Shown one piece after another: positions 3,256-48,463 of a stretch of 64,000 nt of DNA. This stretch comes from an uncultured Victivallaceae bacterium. Its GTDB lineage: Bacteria; Verrucomicrobiota; Lentisphaeria; Victivallales; Victivallaceae. The translations under genes were made by a program, and so were the position numbers. The stretch covers positions 62,001 to 126,000 of the forward strand of contig CALXXL010000005.1 of assembly GCA_944392655.1 (NCBI GenBank), in the 5' to 3' direction. Numbering within the stretch: the first letter of the stretch is position 1; each line of letters opens with the position of its first letter. The notes beneath the pieces are model-generated. The model worked only from the letters and a program-made list of their open reading frames with translations, was not told the DNA's origin and searched no databases.

Positions 3256-4506
3256 ATGCCTGAGAACGATAACATTACCAGCGAACTCGAAAGCGAACTC
3301 TCCGACGATACCGCCGTTTTCGAACCGGAGTATTCCGGAGAGACCGCTAACGGTTCTTCAGACGGAAATTACCGCCTGCCAACCCTTACTCTGGGCGGTA
3401 ATACGCTGGAATCACTGCCGCAGAAAAGCGGCAAGAGATACCGCTTCCTGAGAACAATCGGGTTCGGCGGTATGAAGTCCGTTCTGCTTGTATATGACCG
3501 CGAACTCAGACGCAACGTCGCTATGGCAACTATGCCGGACTGGAGAGAAAGACAGCCCGCCGTCGTCAACCGGTTTATTATGGAGGCCAGAATTACTGCC
3601 AGACTGGAACACCCGAATATCGTGCCGGTTCACGATATCGGACGCGATATGAATGGAACCCCTTACTTCACTATGAAGTATCTTAAAGGTAATACTCTGG
3701 CATCCATTATCAGAAAACTCAAGGCCGGCGATCCGGAAACCGTTGCAACTCACCCGCTGACTAAACTGCTGCGGATATATCTGCGTATATGCAACGCTAT
3801 CGCTTTCGCTCATTCTCAGGGGTTTATACATCTCGATCTTAAACCGGAGAATATTCACGTAGGAGAATTCGGCGAAGTGCAGGTGATCGACTGGGGACTC
3901 GCTCGCGCCATCAACCGGCCGGAAGATGAAGGCAAAATTAAACCACAGAAAAATAACGGTGGATCAGGACGCACTACCGCTATTACCGGAATGACACGCG
4001 ACGGCATCGCCAAAGGTACCCCAGGATTTATGGCTCCGGAACAGGCCGCCGGAAAAAATCGCGAGAAGGATCAACGCACCGATATATATACTCTGGGCTG
4101 CATCCTGTATACCATCCTTACATTCGAAAAACCTCTCGCCGGACGCAAAGTCAAAGAGGTCCTGCGCGCGACCATAAAAGGCAATATACGCGCTCCGCGC
4201 GAGCTCGAAAACCCGCAGTGGCCGATACCTATCGCGCTCGAAGCAATATGCCTTAAAGCTATGGAGCGGTTCCCCGAAAACCGCTACCAGAGCGTATATG
4301 AACTGCGGCAGGATATTATCGCTTTCTCTTCCGGATATGCCACCAAGGCAGAAGACGCGGGCGCACTCAAGAAATTCGCCCTCTTTATTCAGCGCAACGC
4401 TTTTGTGGTGGTGATAATTCTACTGCTGGTTATCCTGATCGCGATTTTCTTCCTGCTCTTTATCGGCGCCGCTACCGGAACTCTGGTGATTAATCATGGA
4501 GCATGA
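3256..4506 (+). CDS. Membrane-anchored Ser/Thr kinase with displaced catalytic lysine
   Basis: Hanks-type protein kinase of 416 residues: an acidic N-terminal tail (1-60), a kinase domain (about 62-355) and one C-terminal transmembrane helix (about 383-404) with almost nothing beyond it. The kinase would face the cytoplasm. Glu110 (helix C), HLDLKPEN (192-199, Asp194 as catalytic base) and DWG (212-214) are present. The usual beta-3 lysine is absent: the site reads VAMA (88-91). A lysine, Lys74, instead sits in the glycine-rich loop (GFGGMKSV), the position used by eukaryotic WNK kinases. The Arg of HRD is Leu. It is either an active kinase with this alternative lysine or a pseudokinase. It starts 6 bases after clpX, so it may be expressed with the Clp machinery; its substrate is unknown. 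Confidence 0.82.
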   Translation: MPENDNITSELESELSDDTAVFEPEYSGETANGSSDGNYRLPTLTLGGNTLESLPQKSGKRYRFLRTIGFGGMKSVLLVYDRELRRNVAMATMPDWRERQPAVVNRFIMEARITARLEHPNIVPVHDIGRDMNGTPYFTMKYLKGNTLASIIRKLKAGDPETVATHPLTKLLRIYLRICNAIAFAHSQGFIHLDLKPENIHVGEFGEVQVIDWGLARAINRPEDEGKIKPQKNNGGSGRTTAITGMTRDGIAKGTPGFMAPEQAAGKNREKDQRTDIYTLGCILYTILTFEKPLAGRKVKEVLRATIKGNIRAPRELENPQWPIPIALEAICLKAMERFPENRYQSVYELRQDIIAFSSGYATKAEDAGALKKFALFIQRNAFVVVIILLLVILIAIFFLLFIGAATGTLVINHGA

Positions 4507-4510
4507 TTTG

Positions 4511-5263
4511 ATGAACAGCAGAAAAATTGCCGTCGTTACCGGCGGCTCAAGCGGCCTCGGTTCCGCATTGATCGACGCATTGAAAAATGATTACTTTGTC
4601 GTCAATATCTCCCGCTCTGCCGCCACCAACGCCGACGCAAATATTGCCGCCGATTTGACCGTAGAAGCCGGGAGACTCAACGCGGTAAATGAGATTAAAA
4701 ATAAATTCGGACGCATCGATCTTTTGGTCAATAATGCCGGAATCGGCGCATACGGCACCTTTGAGGAGCTAGCCATGGAGGAGATAAGAAGACTCTTTGA
4801 AATCGATCTCTTCGCTCCCATCGAGATGACCCGCATCCTTATGCCGGAATTACAGAAAACTTCCGGTACTGTAATCAATATCGCATCCATGGCGGCTAAA
4901 ATCCATGTCCCCGCCATGGGCGGATACTGCGCCGTTAAAGCCGCTTTCGCCATGTTTTCCGAAACTCTGCGGGTTGAGGCCGGCATCAAAGGCGTACGCG
5001 TTATTACCGTATATCCCGGAAGAGTCAATACCGGTTTTTCATCCCGCGCTATCAAATATCGCGAGGTCCCCAATACCCCCGACAACTCCGGCGTGAGTCC
5101 GCATGATTTCGCCGCCAGCGTCATTAAAACTCTCAAAAATCCACGCCGTAAACGACTATTCTTCCCATGGTGGTACCGCCCGGGCGCATGGCTGGTTAAA
5201 TTGCTGCTGGAAGAGTATTACAACCGCAAAAATATCCAGTACTGGAAACTCAATGATAAATAA
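4511..5263 (+). CDS. Short-chain dehydrogenase/reductase
   Basis: Classical NAD(P)-dependent SDR of about 250 residues with a Rossmann fold. The cofactor motif TGGSSGLG (10-17), the NNAG motif with following GIGAYG, the catalytic Ser in NIASM and the catalytic YCAVK (Tyr-x-x-x-Lys) are all present. The substrate cannot be told. An in-frame ATG at 4496 overlaps the end of the kinase gene, but the ATG at 4511 has GGAG (4498-4501) nine bases before it and is preferred. It is the last gene of the clp-kinase run, followed by a strong hairpin terminator. The C-terminal 35 residues are basic and rich in Trp and Pro (FFPWWYRPG), possibly membrane-associated. Confidence 0.85.
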   Translation: MNSRKIAVVTGGSSGLGSALIDALKNDYFVVNISRSAATNADANIAADLTVEAGRLNAVNEIKNKFGRIDLLVNNAGIGAYGTFEELAMEEIRRLFEIDLFAPIEMTRILMPELQKTSGTVINIASMAAKIHVPAMGGYCAVKAAFAMFSETLRVEAGIKGVRVITVYPGRVNTGFSSRAIKYREVPNTPDNSGVSPHDFAASVIKTLKNPRRKRLFFPWWYRPGAWLVKLLLEEYYNRKNIQYWKLNDK

Positions 5264-5266
5264 AAA

Positions 5267-5297
5267 AAACGCCGTCAGGTAAATCCGGACGGCGTTT
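5267..5297. terminator. Bidirectional intrinsic terminator between SDR gene and carA
   Basis: AAACGCCGTC (5267-5276) pairs with GACGGCGTTT (5288-5297). The A-run on the left and T-run on the right allow termination of both convergent transcripts. Confidence 0.85.
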
Positions 5298-28495: not shown

Positions 28496-29251
28496 TTATT
28501 GAATTGTTATGATATAATCGCGGCCGGTGGGATCAACAAAGGCTCCAATCTTGGACTTGATCAGCATACCAGTTCGATCCATCGTTGTCCCTACATGACC
28601 ATCGGCGTAACCAACGTTCGCTTCTCCCTGATGACGCAGCGCTATCGCACGCGGAAAATAACTCAGCGCTCCTTCACAGCGTCTGGCAAATAATATGCAC
28701 TGGATCCCCGTTACCGCATCCCCCTTGTTTTCTCCACGCGTGTAGGCCGAGTCCGCCAGCAGTACAAAATCCGACGGAACAGGAATTTTCGACATGGCTA
28801 TAAATTGACCCGGATTGGTTTTGGTCTGCTCAATTATTTCACAGCCGCTCTCCGCATAGTCGTTCGGCATCGGAATAAACCAGGCAGCCCCGTATGCCTG
28901 GGCACTGTTCATCCCTCCACTGGCACTGATCCAGTTGTCCGGACACAACGTTACCGGACGCTCCGTTATCGGCGAACGCCCCGCTTTGGATAATTTGAAC
29001 CCAAGCTCTTCCGCTACTCCGGGCTGCCTGTACCACCCGGAATATTCATTGCCATACGTGCAGAGAAAATCATCGTTGTTATCCCCATATACCAGCAGCG
29101 CATTTACACATTGCTTGAGATTGCCGGAACAACTGATATCGCGCGCTTTGCCACGCCACGAAAACATCGTCGGCAGCCACAGCAGAAGCAGAACCACCAG
29201 AAGCACTATCAAGATAACAAGTTCAATCATGGAAAAATAACGTCTATTCAT
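28496..29251 (-). CDS. Prepilin-like protein with H-X9-DG C-terminal motif (third member)
   Basis: About 251 residues from the ATG at 29251, which overlaps the preceding gene's stop by eight bases and has GGAGGT eight bases upstream; a longer frame to 29350 lies inside the neighbour. The N-terminus RRYFSMIELVILIVLLVVLLLLW is a type IV pilin-like helix, but degenerate: Tyr precedes the cleavage-site Phe and TL is replaced by SM. The C-terminal signature RHQGEANVGYADGHVG fits the prepilin-associated H-X9-DG motif exactly. Four or more cysteines may form disulphides. It probably assembles with the two pseudopilins upstream in a type II secretion-like or pilus-like structure. Confidence 0.82.
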   Translation of the reverse strand: MNRRYFSMIELVILIVLLVVLLLLWLPTMFSWRGKARDISCSGNLKQCVNALLVYGDNNDDFLCTYGNEYSGWYRQPGVAEELGFKLSKAGRSPITERPVTLCPDNWISASGGMNSAQAYGAAWFIPMPNDYAESGCEIIEQTKTNPGQFIAMSKIPVPSDFVLLADSAYTRGENKGDAVTGIQCILFARRCEGALSYFPRAIALRHQGEANVGYADGHVGTTMDRTGMLIKSKIGAFVDPTGRDYIITIQ

Positions 29252-30026
29252 TTGTATTGACCTCCAAATAGGTGAGTTCTTCTCCTGTTGCATCAACATA
29301 CGCTCCAATTTTTGAATTGGCAAGTATCGACGACTTGTCCGCTGAATCACCTACATGCGCATCCGCATAGGCTAAGTTGGCCGTGCCGTTGTGACGCTCG
29401 CATATCGCCGCCGCTATAGGCGATGCCTTGCCTTCATCGCGACGGTAAAAGTGAGTACACTGTACTCCAGGCATTACCTCCGAACGCTTTTCAAATTTTG
29501 TATAGGCCGAGTCTGCTAAAATTACATAATTGGATATCGCAGGAATCGCATTCAACCGCAGATACTCCTCCGTTGTGTTGATCACTTCTTCGCACTTATA
29601 TGCCGCGTAATCCTCTGGAGATAATGCAAAACGCGGAGCTCCATAGGCAATGTTGCCATGCCATTCAACATCTTCATAACTGCCAGCCGGACACAGCGTT
29701 AATGGACGGTAGCTGCTGGGGCGGCGTGGCTCCTTCGGCATAACAAAACCAAGTTTTTCCGGCATTCCCGGTTGACGGAACCAACCCGTGTAATCCGGAC
29801 CGTAAAGCGCAACCCACCCGTTGTTCGTGTCACCATACATGATAAGGGCCATTACGCATTGACGCAGATTACTCGCACACTGCGTCTTTATTCCGGCTGC
29901 ACGCGCCTGACTCAGCGCCGGAAGCGAAATCGATACCAGAATACCGATTATCGCAACAACAATGAGCAGCTCAATCAACGTGAATTTATACCCCGGATAT
30001 TGGTGGATAACTCTGCGTGATTTCAT
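29244..30026 (-). CDS. Type II secretion/pilin-like protein, H-X9-DA variant (second member)
   Basis: Protein of 260 residues with the classical prepilin helix FTLIELLIVVAIIGILVSISLPAL starting at residue 15, followed by a globular domain and the C-terminal segment ERHNGTANLAYADAHVGD, the H-X9-DG motif with Ala for Gly. The residue before the cleavage-site Phe is Lys, not Gly, so processing by a standard prepilin peptidase is doubtful. Shares 89 identical bases (29683-29771) with the first member. Such genes are abundant in Lentisphaerota and Planctomycetes; their exact role is not settled. Confidence 0.87.
   Translation of the reverse strand: MKSRRVIHQYPGYKFTLIELLIVVAIIGILVSISLPALSQARAAGIKTQCASNLRQCVMALIMYGDTNNGWVALYGPDYTGWFRQPGMPEKLGFVMPKEPRRPSSYRPLTLCPAGSYEDVEWHGNIAYGAPRFALSPEDYAAYKCEEVINTTEEYLRLNAIPAISNYVILADSAYTKFEKRSEVMPGVQCTHFYRRDEGKASPIAAAICERHNGTANLAYADAHVGDSADKSSILANSKIGAYVDATGEELTYLEVNTNE
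29683..29771. repeat. 89-base perfect repeat, copy A (partner 30500-30588)
   Basis: Identical base for base to 30500-30588, in the same orientation inside two paralogous prepilin-like genes whose flanking codons differ. Confidence 0.95.
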
Positions 30027-30069
30027 CTGATGCGCTCCTGTTTATTCATTAGTAATTCTTAAATAAGGC

Positions 30070-30837
30070 CTAATCCAGTTCAAAATGTGTCAGCTCCTCT
30101 CCGGAAATATCTATGTACGCACCCACCAGAGAGTTGTTTAATAAGGACGCTTTGTCAGATGAGTCGCTGACATGCGCATCCGCATAGGCTAAATTGGCCG
30201 TACCAAGATGCCGTTCACACACAGCATAGGATATCGGCGATGCCGCACCCTCATCTCGCCGCGCAAAATGAAGACACTGCGCCCCTGCCAATACCTGCGG
30301 CCGGGGATCAAAACGGGTGTAGGCGGTGTCTGCCAGAAGTACATAGTTCGATATCGCAGGAATCGCACTTATACGCAGGTATTCTTCCGAGCCATTGATG
30401 ACTTTCTCGCATTTGTAGTTAGCGTAATCTTCCGGAAATAACGCAAAGTAAGGTACACCGTAGGCTACATTGTCCACCCACCTGATACCTTCATCCACCC
30501 CAGCCGGACACAGCGTTAATGGACGGTAGCTGCTGGGGCGGCGTGGCTCCTTCGGCATAACAAAACCAAGTTTTTCCGGCATTCCCGGCTGACAGTACCA
30601 CCCCGTATAGGACGGACCGTAGATCGTTACCCAGCCGCCATTGGCGTCACCATACATTATTAACGCCAGCGCACTCTGCTTTAAATTGTTCGCACACTGC
30701 GTTTTTACCCCGGTCGCACGCGCTTTGCTCAGCACGGGAAGCGCAATCGATACCAAAATACCAATTATCGCAACCACAATAAGCAGTTCGATCAGGGTAA
30801 AATATCTGGCTGTGTATCTCTCCGGCACTTTCCGCAT
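30070..30837 (-). CDS. Type II secretion/pilin-like protein, H-X9-DA variant (first member)
   Basis: Protein of 255 residues, paralogue of the next gene. The prepilin helix FTLIELLIVVAIIGILVSIALPVL starts at residue 14, with Tyr rather than Gly before the Phe. The C-terminal motif is ERHLGTANLAYADAHVSD. It opens a seven-gene leftward operon whose later genes encode membrane-anchored hydrolases and an O-antigen-ligase-like protein. A promoter at 30989-31017 and a leader of about 145 bases holding a small ORF lie upstream. Confidence 0.87.
   Translation of the reverse strand: MRKVPERYTARYFTLIELLIVVAIIGILVSIALPVLSKARATGVKTQCANNLKQSALALIMYGDANGGWVTIYGPSYTGWYCQPGMPEKLGFVMPKEPRRPSSYRPLTLCPAGVDEGIRWVDNVAYGVPYFALFPEDYANYKCEKVINGSEEYLRISAIPAISNYVLLADTAYTRFDPRPQVLAGAQCLHFARRDEGAASPISYAVCERHLGTANLAYADAHVSDSSDKASLLNNSLVGAYIDISGEELTHFELD
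30500..30588. repeat. 89-base perfect repeat, copy B (partner 29683-29771)
   Basis: Encodes the central segment around EKLGFVMPKEPRRPSSYRP; identical in DNA to the next gene, including third codon positions. Confidence 0.95.
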
Positions 30838-31073: not shown

Positions 31074-31178
31074 TTTAATTCACGCAGAAGCTCTTCCAGA
31101 TGCGGCTTGAGCCAGCCGTCCGGATAACAATCCCACAGCGACTTCTTTAAGCTGCGCAACGCCAGCGTTGCCGAAATC
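31074..31178 (-). pseudogene. 3'-end fragment of the gene at 34153-36120 (direct repeat copy A)
   Basis: These 105 bases match 34169-34273 with only two mismatches and in the same orientation. They encode the last 35 or so residues of the large protein (TLALRSLKKSLWDCYPDGWL ... LRELN) and end in a stop, here after LNL. No start or upstream part exists: at 31179 the similarity ends sharply and AT-rich sequence follows. Either a remnant of a deleted paralogue or a copy of the target made when the 31179-34168 block was inserted. Confidence 0.85.
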
Positions 31179-31283: not shown

Positions 31284-32192
31284 TCAGTGTTTTATTCCTG
31301 ATTTTTTTACACCTTTAACGACCAGCAGCGCCGCCAGCAGAGCTCCCAGCACAACCAGAAGCGCTATCATTATTACCTTTAGATCCGGGAGACGGGACTC
31401 TTCGGCATAGGCCGCCGCCGGAAAATCATCCGGATTGTTTATTACCGGAACAGCGTCGGGATTCTTAAGCGAAAACTCCACATCTTCCGTGTCCGGTGTG
31501 AACTTTGTATAGCGGCGTTCCCCCAGAAGCGCGCCGTCCTGAGAAAAGTTCTGGATGAGATACATGAAATTATCCTTTACCCCAATCCGGAAGAGCTGTT
31601 TGGCTACCAGCTGCTTTGCATATTCCTGACGTTTCGCCGCCGCTTCTTCTCTGGTCGTATTGAGCAGAATCGCCAGGGATTCGTCATCCAGCGGAATATT
31701 CTGGATTATCTCGTAACAATCTATTCCGTTGTGGCTTACCACCGGAGTTGCGGCATACTCATAGTCGCACTTTAACGTCTGGTCATAACCCAGCACGTTC
31801 TGAAAGGTGCCGTCCAGCAGTTTCGGGATCATTCGGCCGATGTTGCTCCGCCAGTCTTCAATTTCATTCTTTACCGGACGATCTTCAATAAGTTGAAAAA
31901 TGCCGTCGTTATTGACCAGAATTACCAAATCCATATCGGCGTCGGTCTTTAAATCGGCACGGTATTCCACCTTGCCGTCCGCTGTGTGCCGTTTACTGAA
32001 CTTCCCGTCCGGACGCAACCCGGATGTGCGTTTCCCGAAAGGATAATTAAGTGTTACTGTAAAATCACTGTCCAGACAGCATTGCGCCGAGTTCAACACC
32101 GTCTCCCGCGGCGGAGGGAGTTCTTCGACGGCATAAAGCAGACCAGAGAATAACGCAATAGTTAATACTATATGTTTAAGACTGAAATTCAT
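31284..32192 (-). CDS. LolA-like exported protein with C-terminal membrane anchor
   Basis: Protein of 302 residues with a signal peptide (1-21, cleavage near YAVEE), a periplasmic domain of about 240 residues and a C-terminal transmembrane helix (about 268-290) followed by a basic tail. The domain has alternating beta strands (VEYRADLKTDADMDLVILVNNDGIFQLI) and the phrase NGIDCYEIIQNIP, similar to NGVECYILTAKYP in the protein at 36206-37246; both resemble LolA/MucB-type lipoprotein carriers, but this is a pattern judgement only. Base composition is host-like, unlike the AT-rich peptide gene 21 bases upstream. GAGGGT precedes the start. Confidence 0.65.
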   Translation of the reverse strand: MNFSLKHIVLTIALFSGLLYAVEELPPPRETVLNSAQCCLDSDFTVTLNYPFGKRTSGLRPDGKFSKRHTADGKVEYRADLKTDADMDLVILVNNDGIFQLIEDRPVKNEIEDWRSNIGRMIPKLLDGTFQNVLGYDQTLKCDYEYAATPVVSHNGIDCYEIIQNIPLDDESLAILLNTTREEAAAKRQEYAKQLVAKQLFRIGVKDNFMYLIQNFSQDGALLGERRYTKFTPDTEDVEFSLKNPDAVPVINNPDDFPAAAYAEESRLPDLKVIMIALLVVLGALLAALLVVKGVKKSGIKH

Positions 32193-32213: not shown

Positions 32214-32504
32214 TTAATTCTGCTCAATAAAACAAATACTGAAATCTGATTGATGGCATGCAATACATATTGTTAGGTCTCCCCAAGGACAAATATCAAT
32301 ACCTAATGGATTTGCAATAGACTCTGCATGGTTATCTATTGTGATTTGTTCTTGATCCTGTTTTTGAGGATTATAGCTATCAGAAGATAATGCGGTATTT
32401 TCTGCTGATAGTATACGGGGAGATAAAATACAGACACCTAAGATAGATGCCACAGAAATCATTTTTCCTGTTTGATCAATTATGATATTTTTTTCTTTAT
32501 TCAT
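32214..32504 (-). CDS. Small Cys-rich peptide, candidate substrate of the adjacent radical SAM enzyme
   Basis: Protein of 96 residues starting six bases after the stop of the radical SAM gene, with GGAG nine bases before the ATG. The N-terminal part holds a hydrophobic stretch (15-28) that ends in LSAEN, like a signal peptide or membrane leader. A polar linker follows (36-66), then a C-terminal region with Cys72, Cys80, Cys83 and Cys91 spaced among Asp, Trp and His (DICPWGDLTICIACHQSDFS). Radical SAM/SPASM enzymes often install thioether or carbon-carbon links in short Cys- or Asp-containing peptides encoded beside them, so this is a plausible RiPP precursor. No family is recognised. AT-rich like its partner. 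Confidence 0.6.
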   Translation of the reverse strand: MNKEKNIIIDQTGKMISVASILGVCILSPRILSAENTALSSDSYNPQKQDQEQITIDNHAESIANPLGIDICPWGDLTICIACHQSDFSICFIEQN

Positions 32505-32510
32505 GATTAT

Positions 32511-33882
32511 CTACTCCTTATTTTTTTGTGTTTTTTCATATTTATTATCTTTTATTTGCCAATAAAAGTAAGCGGCTTGTTCAATATATGCCTTTCTACG
32601 GAAACAATGGTTGTCGTTTGAACCAAAAGTTCCATTTTTATCTGCCCATTCCCAAGGACATTGTCCTCCACAAATTGATTCTGCCCAACATGAAGAACAA
32701 CGTGAATTACGTACGTCTTCATAAAATTGCCAAAAGCGTTTGCTTTTTTCAATATCTAATTTATCATATATGTTTCCTATTTTCCAACCAGGCATTCCAG
32801 AAAATCGACAACATGGATATAAAGAACCATCTGCTCCAACGTTTAATGAATAACGACAAGCGCCACAGTGAAATATAGATGCATCATTATGCTTGAAAGT
32901 ATTAATCGCCTGCAAAAAACGGCGATATGGATTATACACGCATTTCCCATTTTTAAAATCTTGTATCAGCTTGGATAACAATGTCTCATTTTGTTTGATT
33001 AGTTTCTGATAATCGTCTTGATCAAAAGTTAAATTATAGTAGCGGTAATTAGGACTTAAAACCGGTTCAACAATAATTTCTTTAGGCGCTAGTTTATCTA
33101 GAGAATTAAGTAATGTCAGCAATGGAGGCGGATGGTGGGTCATAGTACAACGTATGACATAAGGATTATCATGTCTTTGTAATACAGACAATCCATTTAA
33201 AATCTTGTTGTAAGAATTAGAACCATCAGCCATAGGACATTGCGAGTTATGAACTTGAGGCGGCCCATCTAAACTTACCATGGTTTTTACTTTAAATTTA
33301 TAAATTAAAGTGGCGATATCGTCGTCTATTAATGTTCCGTTGGTTGTAATACGAAAATTAACTTTTTTATTGGCTTTTTTAGCAGCTGAAGATGCATATT
33401 CTAACGCAAAACGAAAACCGGTTTTATTTAAAAGCGGTTCTCCTCCAAAAAATAAAATATCAATATTTTTTCGTTTTCCGGACACATTAATTAGAAAATC
33501 TATTGCTTTTTGAGCCGTTTGTTTAGACATTAGCGTTTCATTTTTTTTACCACAAAAACAATATTTACAAGACATATTACATGCTTCTGCAAGCATTAAT
33601 TCTATTGAAACTAAATCGGTGTATTCATTCCATTGATTTAATTCAAGCTGATGGATCTCGTTTAATGGGGCGCATTCAATATATTTATGTAATATATCAC
33701 TCTTTGTAAGATCATCTATGGCTGCAATAAATAATGCTATACTGTTAGAGGAATAGTGTGCTTTTTTTATTAATTGGATTGCATCATCAATAGTATAACT
33801 GACTTCTGAATACCATATTGATAAAAAGTCAAAAAAAAATTTTGTTGATTTTGTAAAAAATACAATTTTTTACATCGAACAT
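32511..33882 (-). CDS. Radical SAM/SPASM peptide-maturase-like protein, frame broken near the 5' end
   Basis: Radical SAM enzyme with the CxxxCxxC cluster motif (CNMSCKYC), FFGGEPLL and a C-terminal SPASM region with nine cysteines for auxiliary iron-sulphur clusters (CGAC, CCRF, CSSC, CGGQC and a final Cys). The uninterrupted frame with a start codon (32511-33596, 361 residues) begins only five residues before the first Cys and lacks a ribosome-binding site. Upstream, the frame stays open for more than 80 codons without any start. An ATG at 33882 reads 17 codons in the next frame (MFDVKNCIFYKINKIFF) and would join if one base of the nine-A run at 33831-33839 were absent, giving about 456 residues with a normal N-terminal domain. 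AT-rich, likely transferred. Confidence 0.78.
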
Positions 33883-34152
33883 AAAATAACAATCAAGTAT
33901 TTTAAAAATGTGAAAAGCTGGTTTTTGCATATATTTTCATTGTAAAATTTATTAATATCAATCTACATTAGCGTATTGTATTATTTTTTTCAAGTATATT
34001 TTGGTGAAATTAATGTAAAAATATTAAAATTATGTGTAAATGATTTTTTTAATTCACTGTTATCATGAATGAAACTATATGCAATTTTTTAATACATACG
34101 TTTGTAGTACGTCGTGATGACAATGTTTTAAGATAAAATTATACAAATATGT
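33883..34152. other. AT-rich non-coding stretch upstream of the radical SAM gene
   Basis: Very AT-rich DNA with no convincing gene. It holds the presumed promoter region of the radical SAM-peptide pair (for example TTCACA, 17 bases, TGTTAT just before the ATG at 33882) and the stop of the large gene that begins at 36120. Composition differs sharply from 34.2 kb onward. Confidence 0.5.
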
Positions 34153-36120
34153 TTATAAACAATTAATGTTTAATTCACGCAGAATCTCTTCCAGATGCGG
34201 ATTGAGCCAGCCGTCCGGATAACAATCCCACAGCGACTTCTTTAAGCTGCGCAACGCCAGCGTTGCCGAAATCCAGCTGCAGCTCCAGCCGCTTTCCACA
34301 CTCCACGCTCCCCAGCCGGAGTCCGCCGCACTGCCGTAATAATCCCACAATTCCCAGTCAAAACCACGCAGCCACGCACCGTTTAAATATGGCTGATCCT
34401 CCGACTCCGCCTGTATCCGGCAGAGGAAACGGCACAGCTTATCCTCCAACTCTGCTGCACCGGAATCCGGACACGCCGCCGCCGCTTCATGCAGCGATAT
34501 AAACATGAAGTTCGCCGTATACAATAGATCGCACGCCGGATCGCCGTTGGACTGGATCAGCGCAGCTTCCGTCGTGCCGTAGGCTTCATTGCTCTGCGGC
34601 GACGGAAAGTCGCCCATCTCAAGATCTCCCATCTCTTCCTTTATCGCTCCACAGGGAGCCATCAACCGCAGGACGTCAGATAATATGCGATCCACCATTA
34701 GCCGGTGTTCCTCACTGTCTTCTACCCGCACCAGCCACGCCGCCGTCATCAGCAGACGGGCAACCTCCTGCGACTGACCGTTCGTCCATTTGAGCCTGGG
34801 ATAAGAGGACATAAGCCGGGTCATCGCCCGCTTTACCGGAGTGAGAAAATTACTCCAGCCAGTAAGCTTCCACCCCAGCAGCAGCCCCGCCAGCATCGAG
34901 GCCTGATAGTGCGGACTTAAGTGTTCAAAATCTTCATTCCGGTAATAATTTATCTCCCGACCGCCGGTGAACGACTCCGGATCGTCAAAACGAGGCCGGC
35001 GGAAGCCGTTGCGGTTGTTCAGACGCCAACCACCAATAAGATTACGGAGAATCCCCTTGTCCCATTTGTGCTCTCCAATTCCGCAGGCCGTCAGCAACGC
35101 CCCCATGCAGCTGCGCGCATTGCCGGAACAGTAGTAGGCCGGAGTGTTTTCAAAAAATGTGAATTGTCCGTACATCGGCGATGACTCGTCCATACAGCAG
35201 TTGCCAGGCATAAAAAGATTATCTACCAGCCTGGTTGCCCGGTCAGCCGCCAACGGGTCGCCGTCCAGCAGGTATTTGAGCACATAGACCATCGCTACTT
35301 CACCTGTGCAGTCGGTTCTGGTCAATTGACGGCGCAGTTGCGAACCATCCGGATATATCTCCGAACAATAACCCTCCGCCACCAGAAGCCCTGTATTGTG
35401 ATAGCTGCCCAGCATATAATGGGTGAGAAAATTATAGCATCTCATGAAGGCTTCCAGCTCAAGTGCAGGCGTGACCGGTACGCCATCCGGAAACGCCGGA
35501 CGTACCGCCATAGTGTAGGCAAGGCGACGGTCAGCACCTTCCGGAACCAGAAAACCGGTAATGTATTCCAGAACTTTGAGCCAGTCCGGCTGCGGCGTGA
35601 AACGGCCGCGACGGAAATTGGAAAAGCCACTGTTGATGATCAGAACATTTTTATAGTCAGGATGATGAAATAATAATGGCGTATAATCATCCGGCAGACC
35701 GAATACCGCTTTGCGATAGCCAGCCACTTTTGCCGCCACCAGCAATGGTACAACCTGAGACTTCACTTTACGGCAGCAGGCGGTATGCTGTACTAAAATT
35801 GTGTCGCCGCTTAATCCGGGAATTGCATCCGCCATCGCTACCGTACGGCGGAACCCGAACGGCTCCGCTTCCTCAAAGTCAACCCCGGAGAGTTTGTCAG
35901 GATATTCAATCAGTAATTTTATACCCGATTGCGCCGCATTACGCCACGATTCAGGAATGATATTGCCGCAGGGGTAAGCCCCGGCCAATATTGCTACCGC
36001 ATCGCCGAATGAGGCTTCAGTCAACGCCGAAGCTGTTGAAGCAAGTTTAAAGCCGATTCCATTGTCCGACAGCAGCTTGACAAAGTCATTATCTGCCCCG
36101 CATCCGGTTATAAACAGCAT
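34153..36120 (-). CDS. Large protein of unknown function, possibly an alpha/alpha-toroid enzyme
   Basis: Protein of 655 residues without signal peptide or membrane helix. Residues 1-190 look like a Rossmann-like or amidotransferase-like alpha/beta domain (DAVAILAGAYPCG, LLFHHPDYKNVLIIN). Residues about 225-640 are mostly helical and rich in aromatic residues, Trp, Gly and Asn (YYCSGNARSCMGALL, DFEHLSPHYQASMLAGLLLGWKL, DWELWDYYGSAADSGWGAW), typical of (alpha/alpha)6 toroids found in glycosidases and lyases. I do not recognise the family. The last 105 coding bases occur again at 31074-31178. The C-terminus after the repeat (INCL) differs from the repeat's own end (NL), so the original 3' end may have been altered. 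Confidence 0.68.
   Translation of the reverse strand: MLFITGCGADNDFVKLLSDNGIGFKLASTASALTEASFGDAVAILAGAYPCGNIIPESWRNAAQSGIKLLIEYPDKLSGVDFEEAEPFGFRRTVAMADAIPGLSGDTILVQHTACCRKVKSQVVPLLVAAKVAGYRKAVFGLPDDYTPLLFHHPDYKNVLIINSGFSNFRRGRFTPQPDWLKVLEYITGFLVPEGADRRLAYTMAVRPAFPDGVPVTPALELEAFMRCYNFLTHYMLGSYHNTGLLVAEGYCSEIYPDGSQLRRQLTRTDCTGEVAMVYVLKYLLDGDPLAADRATRLVDNLFMPGNCCMDESSPMYGQFTFFENTPAYYCSGNARSCMGALLTACGIGEHKWDKGILRNLIGGWRLNNRNGFRRPRFDDPESFTGGREINYYRNEDFEHLSPHYQASMLAGLLLGWKLTGWSNFLTPVKRAMTRLMSSYPRLKWTNGQSQEVARLLMTAAWLVRVEDSEEHRLMVDRILSDVLRLMAPCGAIKEEMGDLEMGDFPSPQSNEAYGTTEAALIQSNGDPACDLLYTANFMFISLHEAAAACPDSGAAELEDKLCRFLCRIQAESEDQPYLNGAWLRGFDWELWDYYGSAADSGWGAWSVESGWSCSWISATLALRSLKKSLWDCYPDGWLNPHLEEILRELNINCL
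34169..34273. repeat. 105-base direct repeat, copy B (partner 31074-31178)
   Basis: 103 of 105 bases are identical to 31074-31178, same orientation. Together the copies bracket 2990 bases containing the radical SAM gene, the Cys-rich peptide gene and a LolA-like gene. Confidence 0.95.
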
Positions 36121-45467: not shown

Positions 45468-46100
45468 ATGAAAACAGTATTATTTGTTCTTCTGGATAAG
45501 TTTGCCGACTGGGAGGCGGCTCCTCTGGCGGCTGCGGTTACTACTCTCGGCGCACAAGTTAAAGTAGCATCGCCAAACGGTCAACCTGTACGGTCAATCG
45601 GTGGATTTACTACTATGCCGGATATCGGTATTTCTGGCGATTCTTTGAATAGTTGCTATGGCGTGGTATTGATTGGCGGTATGTCATGGCGGGAGAACGT
45701 CGCTGAAACTGTCGCCCCTTTGGTACGCTCCGCCGTGGAACGGAATATGCCCATCGGCGCAATATGTGATGCAGTCGTTTTCCTGGCTCAACTCGGAATC
45801 TTGAACAATATAACCCATACTGGAAATATGCTGGACGATCTGCAAAATTATGCCGGCAAAAAATATTCCGGAGAAAAACTCTACCGCAATGAACCGGCTG
45901 TTCGGGATAACTCCATCGTAACTGCCAACGGCACCGCCGCTCTGGAGTTCGCCCGGGAAATGCTGGTCGCTTTGGGAATGCTTTCTCCGGACGATTCGGC
46001 AAAATGGTACAGACTATTCAAATCAGGTTGTTACCAGGCTCAGGAAGAGGCCGCATGGTGGTTTGAGATACTCAATTCGCCGTTCGGGGACCTTTTATAA
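45468..46100 (+). CDS. DJ-1/PfpI-family protein (class I glutamine amidotransferase-like)
   Basis: Cytoplasmic alpha/beta protein of 210 residues. The nucleophile-elbow Cys100 in IGAICDAVVFLA and Glu16 (DWEAAP) form the conserved DJ-1/PfpI pair. Members act as glyoxalases, deglycase-like or chaperone-like stress proteins or as putative peptidases; the exact activity cannot be told here. The segment VVLIGGMSWRE is typical of the YdeA-like branch. Its 3' end overlaps the convergent zinc-ribbon gene by six bases. Confidence 0.87.
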   Translation: MKTVLFVLLDKFADWEAAPLAAAVTTLGAQVKVASPNGQPVRSIGGFTTMPDIGISGDSLNSCYGVVLIGGMSWRENVAETVAPLVRSAVERNMPIGAICDAVVFLAQLGILNNITHTGNMLDDLQNYAGKKYSGEKLYRNEPAVRDNSIVTANGTAALEFAREMLVALGMLSPDDSAKWYRLFKSGCYQAQEEAAWWFEILNSPFGDLL

Positions 46101-47120
46101 GGAATTGTATCTCGCAATAATCTCTTTAAAAGCCGCAGTCTGTTCCGCCGTCATCTCAAATTCATAAGGATACTTTCCGTAGAATTTAACAAAAATTGAA
46201 TCTGATTCTGCAATTTCTGTTAATTCATTATCTATATCATTTACATTATTATCGGCCCATTCTTGAATTAAACTATTTTCCACCTCCGATTCTTTTTCAG
46301 GATATTCAGTCGCGATATAAACGCTCTTTCCATTACTGCCTTTTATTTGAATTTTATCGTAAAAAATCCAAGATCTTGAACTCTTATAAGCATAGTATCT
46401 GGTGCGTAGACGCAATAATTTAGTGCCATTGTCATGTAGCCCCGCATACAATTCAATAGAATAGTACTCATCAGGATAACCGTATAGTCCAGGACGAGTG
46501 ACATATTTACAATCTCGCTTGGTATTATACCAGGTGATTGACTGTATGTAGTCGTATTTTTTATAAATATTGGCCAGCAAAGCTGCTTCCTGTTTGGCTT
46601 TTTGTTGAGCAAGACGGATTTCATTGTTTTTTATTTGTTGTACGATATTGTCAAATGAACGCGTGTACTCTGTATCTGCTTTCTTATAAGGATGACGTTT
46701 AAAAAGATTTTCATATATTTCTCTTGCTTTCTCTAAATTTCCTTCCTTAACGGCAGCCTCCGCTTCCGCTTTGAGCCGTTCAGGACCAAATTTTAATTCA
46801 TCTATGGTTTGCTGATGAGATTTTATATCATTTTCTAGCACCACTATCTGATTCTTTAAAGAAATGTTTTGAACAAATAATACAGCTACTGCAAGCAAAC
46901 TTAAAACCAGTATTATTACGGCAACAAGAACAAGGCAAAACTTTGTATTAGATGTTTTATCGGTAATTTGTGTTTGTACTTGAGGCGGATGAGGGATTGC
47001 CGTGTCCACATAAGGTTCAACGCAAAACTCTTTTTGGCAAGTCGTACATTCGACTATTTGACCATTGTATTGATCTTCGATCTCATAATGTTGCTTACAG
47101 TGAGGACATTCTGTTTTCAT
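46095..47120 (-). CDS. Zinc-ribbon membrane protein with coiled coil
   Basis: About 341 residues. The N-terminus is a zinc ribbon (CPHC near 4-7, CTTC near 26-29) of the type also found at the start of the kinase at 51027. A transmembrane helix follows (about 60-84), then a coiled coil (about 85-110), a TPR-like helical pair (LKAEAEAAVKEGNLEKAREIYENLFKRHP) and a C-terminal beta-rich domain. The N-terminus would be cytoplasmic and the rest periplasmic. GGAG precedes the ATG at 47120. Codon use is more AT-rich than the average of the window. Function unknown. Confidence 0.68.
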   Translation of the reverse strand: MKTECPHCKQHYEIEDQYNGQIVECTTCQKEFCVEPYVDTAIPHPPQVQTQITDKTSNTKFCLVLVAVIILVLSLLAVAVLFVQNISLKNQIVVLENDIKSHQQTIDELKFGPERLKAEAEAAVKEGNLEKAREIYENLFKRHPYKKADTEYTRSFDNIVQQIKNNEIRLAQQKAKQEAALLANIYKKYDYIQSITWYNTKRDCKYVTRPGLYGYPDEYYSIELYAGLHDNGTKLLRLRTRYYAYKSSRSWIFYDKIQIKGSNGKSVYIATEYPEKESEVENSLIQEWADNNVNDIDNELTEIAESDSIFVKFYGKYPYEFEMTAEQTAAFKEIIARYNSL

Positions 47121-47362
47121 CACATTTCTTTCTCCAAAATTACTGGTGTAGTAAATATTATACTAATTAGATATAAAATCGACTCAATACTTACACAATT
47201 CTGTAATGATTATTTGTGGTTTGATATACACATATTTGAAAATTTGAAAACCGGTATAACGAAAAATGAAAATCTGGATTTTTTGTATTTGTCTTATCAA
47301 CTGTTATATTAATAAAATATGGCAAGAGAAAAATGCTGTTCGCGTTGTTTGCAGAAAAACTT

Positions 47363-47857
47363 TTATTGAGCTTTCTTTTTTTGTTCTTCTATTTTTTTCA
47401 TTTCTTCATCAAGTTTTTCTTTAATCCGGCTCACACCATCATCCCAAGAATTTACTTTATTAGCCTTACCCATTCCGGAAACTTCGAAGGCAGCATCGTC
47501 AAACGAAAAGGTAAGTCCTGTAAGGCTACCGTTTTTAGCTTGTATAGAGTTTGAATACCAAATACATGAATAATATTCTCCATTTTTTTCCACGATACCT
47601 CCAATAATGTAAACATTATTAAAGTCTTTTGATTTTGTTGTATAAAGCGTATGAAATTTATAGCCAGATTTCAGTATGCCGGAAAAGGCATCCACGAACT
47701 GGCTTTGTCCTTGACTAACCTTCTCAGTACCCGGTACTTTATTGGTGTCATTACTTGTTTTTAAGGAACTTCCGCTATTACAAGCATAAATAACGCAAAT
47801 AATCACGATGACAACAAAAATCACCCCACAGGACGAACCTTTTTTTGTTTCTGCCAT
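47363..47857 (-). CDS. Small membrane protein of unknown function
   Basis: Protein of 164 residues with one N-terminal hydrophobic segment (about 10-26, containing Cys-rich CVIYACNSG that could also be a lipobox-like site), a Ser/Thr/Asn-rich linker, a compact domain and a highly charged C-terminal helix (KEKLDEEMKKIEEQKKKAQ). No family recognised. AT-rich and flanked by non-coding DNA on both sides; it could be part of an acquired segment. Confidence 0.55.
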   Translation of the reverse strand: MAETKKGSSCGVIFVVIVIICVIYACNSGSSLKTSNDTNKVPGTEKVSQGQSQFVDAFSGILKSGYKFHTLYTTKSKDFNNVYIIGGIVEKNGEYYSCIWYSNSIQAKNGSLTGLTFSFDDAAFEVSGMGKANKVNSWDDGVSRIKEKLDEEMKKIEEQKKKAQ

Positions 47858-48388: not shown

Positions 48389-48463
48389 TGGTAGCGGGGG
48401 TTGGAATCGAACCAACGGCCTTCAGGTTATGAGCCTGACGAGCTACCACTGCTCCACCCCGCA
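48389..48463 (-). tRNA. Initiator tRNA-Met (CAU)
   Basis: A 75-nt cloverleaf including encoded CCA. Acceptor stem GCGGGG/CCCCGC, D-arm GAGC/GCTC, anticodon CAT in loop CTCATAA, T-arm GTTGG-TTCGATT-CCAAC. Initiator marks: no Watson-Crick pair at 1:72 (U and U) and A11-U24 in the D-stem. The three G-C pairs usual in the anticodon stem are only two here, because pair 29:41 is A-U. The D-loop is one or two bases shorter than in E. coli. Confidence 0.93.

Follow-up and report, generated by a model that had tools for sequence, protein, structure and literature searches.

What is encoded by an AT-rich pair of genes, a radical SAM/SPASM enzyme and a short Cys-rich peptide just behind it, in a genome whose neighbouring genes are far richer in GC, and could the peptide be the enzyme's substrate? 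We addressed this question for a locus in a 64,000-nucleotide stretch of DNA (hereafter, the window) from an uncultured Victivallaceae bacterium (contig CALXXL010000005.1). Our analysis indicates that the locus is probably a maturase gene together with its precursor gene, both belonging to a rare family of Cys-Asp thioether (ranthipeptide-type) systems that has spread horizontally, and that the pair was acquired by this genome and is now broken. The relevant features are as follows (window positions):

32214..32504, minus strand: candidate precursor peptide of 96 aa, from the ORF list, with a signal-like N-terminus and a Cys/Asp tail
32511..33869, minus strand: radical SAM/SPASM catalytic frame, 452 codons from stop to stop, with CxxxCxxC, GGEP, and the SPASM cysteines kept
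33831..33930, minus strand: 5' portion of the enzyme gene, displaced from the catalytic frame, opening with ATG 33930, closing with the stop at 33831, and encoding MQKPAFHIFKILDCYFMFDVKNCIFYKINKIFF
33831..33839: 9-base A run on the plus strand (a T run in the gene), the site of the frame break
31284..32192, minus strand: third gene of the block, a secreted protein with a C-terminal TM segment and no Pfam family
34169..34273: first copy of a direct repeat, consisting of the 3' end of host gene 34153-36120
31074..31178: second copy of this repeat, with 103 of 105 positions identical, at the far border of the acquired block

An AT-rich gene pair within a repeat-bounded block

The ORF list and the domain scans together recovered what the first-pass annotation had described, i.e., a SPASM-type frame with a 96-residue peptide gene six bases beyond its end (32511) on the same strand. 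The AT bias that it had reported was seen as well, with a GC content of 0.32 for both the peptide ORF and the enzyme frame vs 0.49-0.54 in neighbouring genes; in the 270 bp upstream, GC is 0.20. An AAGGAG sequence lies 9 bases 5' of the peptide ATG.

Both genes reside in a 3.1-kb block bounded by the 105-nt direct repeats, of which no further copy was found in the rest of the genome. The outer repeat copy has a different gene end, LRELNL-stop, which reads as the native one and is followed by downstream DNA of its own, and the inner copy terminates in INCL-stop. Integration at a gene's 3' end leaves such an arrangement when the gene stays readable, and it suggests that the block was acquired, with local duplication as an alternative. 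We recognised no integrase within the block, comparable repeats do not bound the relatives' loci, and an empty insertion site was not demonstrable in the congener G066, where the gene order differs. The third gene of the block has a host-like GC content and shows weak similarity to a family of secreted proteins of the window genome (G000) and to a gene beside one locus of G125, a genome of the same family.

Elsewhere in the window, a second AT-rich patch (46095-47857, GC about 0.35) holds two ORFs and is perhaps another acquired islet; one of these ORFs combines a TM segment with a zinc-ribbon-like stretch at its N-terminus, and a tRNA-Met lies nearby (48389-48463). In addition, positions 28496-30837 encode three tandem proteins with a prepilin-type N-terminal motif, two of them closely similar.

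Relatives of the enzyme are rare and scattered

A locus search with the window enzyme alone as the query found nothing, and the relatives were recovered by searching with an alignment that included the two enzyme copies of G125. Five relatives share 34-40% identity with the enzyme, namely L009 from a Verrucomicrobia MAG, L010 from a Planctomycetes MAG, L011 from Akkermansia muciniphila CSUN-56, and L012 and L013. The last two represent a single 5-kb locus, almost unchanged between a MAG labelled Omnitrophota and one labelled Hydrogenedentota, reflecting either recent transfer or a binning error. Two further relatives (G385 and G323) came from a search of the phylum, in which only 5 of the 388 genomes sampled carry the enzyme. 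It is absent from congener G066, and viral contigs and plasmids yielded only distant enzymes. A search with the peptide across 137 genomes of the order, plus plasmids, found no relative of it, and our literature searches, which covered papers readable without subscription, returned no description of such an enzyme-precursor family. The family is rare, probably horizontally spread, and apparently undescribed.

Both G125 loci contain insertion sequences. At the first (G125:C1, i.e., L097, which is the same locus as L005), the precursor gene (3437-5296) is split by an IS110-type transposase gene, and its distal part has a C-x-x-C repeat tail. At the second (G125:C2, i.e., L098; 4668-5654), the enzyme copy is cut short and transposase genes lie directly behind it.

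The enzyme gene is interrupted within an RRE-like domain

The first-pass annotation had drawn a continuous enzyme gene from 33882, which was not confirmed: ATG 33882 belongs to a short frame with a stop at 33831. The catalytic frame (33869-32511) is open, but it has no ATG, GTG, or TTG before 33596, and the ATG at that position lies past the first core strand, a few codons ahead of the first cluster cysteine. Enzymes of the intact relatives begin with ~90 further residues bearing the motif PPPYHxFE...VYDTS...FRID. This stretch does exist in the window, in the other frame from 33930 to 33831 (MQKPAFHIFKILDCYFMFDVKNCIFYKINKIFF), and its alignment with the N-terminus of L005 scores 91 vs 22.7 ± 4.4 for shuffled sequences. 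The homology-supported start is ATG 33930, and its frame ends inside a 9-base homopolymer (33831-33839) that is the longest A run in the window and the sole homopolymer of at least 9 bases inside any of the window's coding regions.

In a structural model of the intact relative L011, the N-terminal domain comprises three strands followed by three helices, which is the RRE plan. The displaced stretch of the window gene encodes the first three strands of this RRE-like domain, so the break splits the strands from the helices of a putative leader-binding domain. The domain is thus coded in two frames, and the N-terminal part of the window enzyme model is of low confidence. Because the gene is broken within the leader-binding domain, the enzyme is probably off or decaying as sequenced.

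It is a serious possibility that the window copy is a decaying relic, i.e., a foreign block with a dead enzyme and a peptide of no more consequence. The position of the frameshift inside the RRE-like domain, the insertion sequences at both G125 loci, and the lack of the enzyme in congener G066 point that way, as does our failure to find TatC in either the window genome or G066. (TatC is present in the other Verrucomicrobiota tested, G125, G156, G323, and G385; given that the window genome is about 95% complete, its absence there is likely but not proved.) However, the lesion is single, none of the radical SAM or SPASM cysteines is lost, and the peptide ORF is intact, with a good ribosome site and regular Cys/Asp modules, all of which argue against this reading.

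It is likewise quite conceivable that the frameshift is no lesion, being instead a homopolymer misread in the single assembly, phase variation between cells, or a site of slippage read-through. Indeed, the break falls exactly in the homopolymer, and the rest of the gene looks maintained. A misread is nevertheless made less probable by general experience, as short-read methods usually assemble runs of 9 correctly.

The enzyme is akin to SPASM peptide maturases

Pfam placed both Radical_SAM and SPASM above cut-off in the window enzyme, and the CxxxCxxC motif and SPASM cysteines that define the superfamily are kept in the alignment. The top NCBIfam model was the PapB ranthipeptide maturase (NF047865; 4.8e-78, 262.7 bits), followed by the nif11 maturase, SCIFF, and QhpD models, all under cut-off; sactipeptide and cyclophane maturase models ranked lower. 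More specifically, both the window enzyme and its relatives (240-259 bits) miss the curated PapB cut-off of 340 bits, the QhpD model (TIGR03906) gave 166 bits vs a cut-off of 453, and the SCIFF maturase model (TIGR03974) gave 207 bits vs 425. CteB is the nearest solved chain by sequence (5wgg, 1e-40) and also the nearest solved structure in a fold search with the window enzyme, and the model of the intact L011 enzyme matches it with a target-normalised TM score of 0.82-0.84. With PapB, SCIFF, and QhpD among the best models and CteB as the nearest structure, the kinship with SPASM peptide maturases claimed in the first-pass annotation is upheld.

A 40-enzyme tree united the window enzyme and seven relatives (L005, L009-L012, L095, and L096) in one clade with support of 95/92, or 100/98 without L096. 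Neither QhpD (L014-L017) nor L046, the PapB member, falls within this clade. Its end branches are long, and the placement of L096 is the least sure. Outside the clade, a Poribacteria locus (L020, 3226-3588) encodes another twin-Arg-like peptide, in which Cys recurs at intervals of 5-7 residues; a PapB-like radical SAM gene lies downstream of it.

A Cys-rich precursor adjoins the enzyme in all clade relatives

The gene pairing is conserved, as had been anticipated, since a Cys-rich precursor adjoins the enzyme in 7/7 clade relatives. It lies directly after the enzyme in L009 (390 aa), L010 (333 aa), L011 (348 aa), L012 (170 aa), and L095 (90 aa), and directly before it in L096 (211 aa). No Pfam or NCBIfam family was found in the relatives' precursors that were scanned. 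Most of them open with a twin-Arg stretch (e.g., SRRKFLGK) and a hydrophobic segment, followed by Cys repeats; the L011 leader has only GRGEF in place of the twin-Arg stretch.

The repeats follow a strict register. Asp occurs at position -2 of 95 of the 112 Cys in six relatives (20.8 expected, z 19.5), including 94/101 in the four loci L009-L012, and it persists in 60 of the 73 Cys pairs not spaced by 10 in the five longer precursors. We also considered CX7D as the conserved unit and rejected it, as it mostly vanishes where the Cys spacing is not 10 whereas Asp at -2 stays. The outgroup precursor, L096, instead has Asp at -3 in 10/10 Cys, and in the G125 precursor the repeats are C-x-x-C, not D-x-C. 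The notion of a conserved Cys/Asp tail therefore held only in part, in that the Cys are not conserved one by one but an Asp 2-3 residues before Cys is shared by most relatives. The twin-Arg leader is likewise shared by most of them, and the window peptide lacks it.

The lengths of these precursors (90-390 aa) and the Tat-type signals on most of them raise the alternative of protein maturation in the manner of QhpD-QhpC, in which the precursor would be a subunit of a larger envelope enzyme and no secreted peptide product would exist. Several of the precursors, moreover, sit with hydrolase-like genes and genes for secreted proteins of the CarboxypepD_reg type, and QhpD is a near family. We nonetheless find this reading unlikely, because the clade is separate from QhpD in the tree and no dehydrogenase or heme subunit genes are seen beside the clade loci, unlike in L014-L016; none encoding QHNDH subunits was recognised in the acquired block either.

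It is more doubtful still that the enzyme forms another bond, such as an alpha-carbon sactionine or a product of other SPASM chemistry, with Asp serving recognition or metal binding. Related SPASM families do make several bond types, and D-x-C repeats could bind metal, but the best-scoring models include enzymes that form Cys-Asp/Glu or other non-alpha thioethers (PapB, SCIFF, and QhpD), and it is Asp that keeps a fixed place beside Cys.

The window peptide carries two C-X3-D-X3-C modules

The four Cys noted in the last 25 residues of the window peptide are indeed there (positions 72, 80, 83, and 91), arranged as C72PWGD76LTIC80, then IA, then C83HQSD87FSIC91, i.e., as two C-X3-D-X3-C modules. 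Two such modules arose in 0.02% of shuffles of the 30-residue tail, two modules of any equal spacing arose in 1.1%, and no other window ORF of at least 60 aa has even one C-X3-D-X3-C module, so the arrangement goes beyond chance. Although Pfam and NCBIfam gave no match for the peptide, the first-pass statement that it fits no familiar precursor class is not supported, since its tail contains two copies of CX3D, the PapA motif cross-linked by PapB; the relatives have mainly D-x-C. An Asp also precedes Cys in the window tail, a feature shared with the relatives. The hydrophobic N-terminus of the peptide (h-region at about residues 15-28) resembles an export signal.

The window peptide departs from the clade-type precursor, having no twin-Arg leader and an Asp two residues ahead of Cys72 alone (four residues ahead of Cys80 and of Cys91). 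Comparisons of its leader with those of the relatives gave p values from 0.006 to 0.78 (seven tests, uncorrected), which are only suggestive of homology. The missing twin Arg and the failure to detect TatC fit either a switch of export route or a loss of function. While the faint resemblance of the leaders might suggest that peptide and enzyme are unrelated chance neighbours, the 6-base gap, shared strand and AT bias, a position as in the relatives, and the non-random Cys/Asp modules make this very improbable.

Proposed mechanism and significance

Reasoning from PapB, QhpD, and NxxcA as analogues, we propose that, in intact members, the RRE-like N-terminal domain would hold the precursor leader while the radical SAM/SPASM core takes a hydrogen from the beta carbon of Asp, and that the sulphur of a nearby Cys would close the thioether in the cytoplasm, before export. 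The cross-linked protein would then be exported, by Tat in most relatives; a chain pre-folded in this way would have to pass through Tat or an exporter of its own, in keeping with the relatives' twin-Arg leaders. With two C-X3-D-X3-C modules, the window peptide could acquire up to two Cys-Asp links and retain two free Cys. The product may possibly be an envelope scaffold, a metal binder, or an antimicrobial.

The most likely reading of the window copy is that of a divergent and perhaps silenced representative of this undescribed ranthipeptide-like family. The frameshift, the weak leader similarity and missing twin Arg of the window peptide, the failure to detect TatC, the CX3D/DX3C spacing of the window peptide unlike the relatives' D-x-C, and the C-x-x-C repeats of G125 all speak against this explanation. 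A bolder version, which we regard as tentative and rather doubtful, is that the family constitutes a new RiPP-like class, in which a single RRE-bearing radical SAM enzyme would place as many as about thirty short-range thioether links, Asp(n)-Cys(n+2 or n+3), along a Tat-exported protein of 170-390 aa to give a rigid and stable extracellular ladder, with the window peptide as a shortened variant on another export route, Tat being undetected in its genome.

To our knowledge, few ranthipeptides have been characterised, and those are short. The relatives described here suggest that a single exported protein may undergo radical SAM thioether chemistry at dozens of sites, the acceptor in each case preceding the Cys. 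The strict Asp-x-Cys register, replaced by Asp-x-x-Cys in the outgroup, directly predicts which residues are joined. The family occurs in phyla that have received little study, but also in an Akkermansia strain that is in culture and so makes these predictions testable, and the window copy is best used as a pointer to such intact relatives.

Comparison with known systems

PapB/PapA (freyrasin, ranthipeptides) is the top-scoring enzyme family, and the two CX3D motifs of the window tail recall the Cys-X3-Asp that PapB cross-links (PMC9413430). In contrast, the window enzyme is under the PapB cut-off (262 vs 340) and in a clade apart from L046, the sole PapB member in the tree, and the window peptide has just two motifs, a signal-like N-terminus, and an Asp between two Cys.

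QhpD, which matures QhpC of quinohemoprotein amine dehydrogenase, forms Cys-Asp/Glu links in the cytoplasm, pre-export (PMC7876137). It resembles the window enzyme in being a SPASM enzyme that acts on an adjoining Cys/Asp protein and is near in the HMM scans, but it forms its own clade (L014-L017), the window block has no dehydrogenase subunits, and the relatives of the window enzyme have Tat-type leaders and repeated D-x-C.

The SCIFF maturase (CteB/ScfB), whose products bear non-alpha thioethers (PMC8326336), provides the nearest solved structure by both sequence and fold. Nevertheless, the window enzyme reaches only half of the SCIFF cut-off (207 vs 425), and the window precursor, with four Cys in its tail, is not of the short SCIFF type with six Cys in 45 residues.

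Finally, NxxcA differs in that it concerns a streptococcal peptide with a single Asn link, and its likeness is drawn from the peptide rather than from an enzyme comparison: Cys23 is linked to Asn20, ahead of it (PMC8326336), so that the acceptor is N-terminal to the Cys, as we propose for the D-x-C and D-x-x-C of the relatives.
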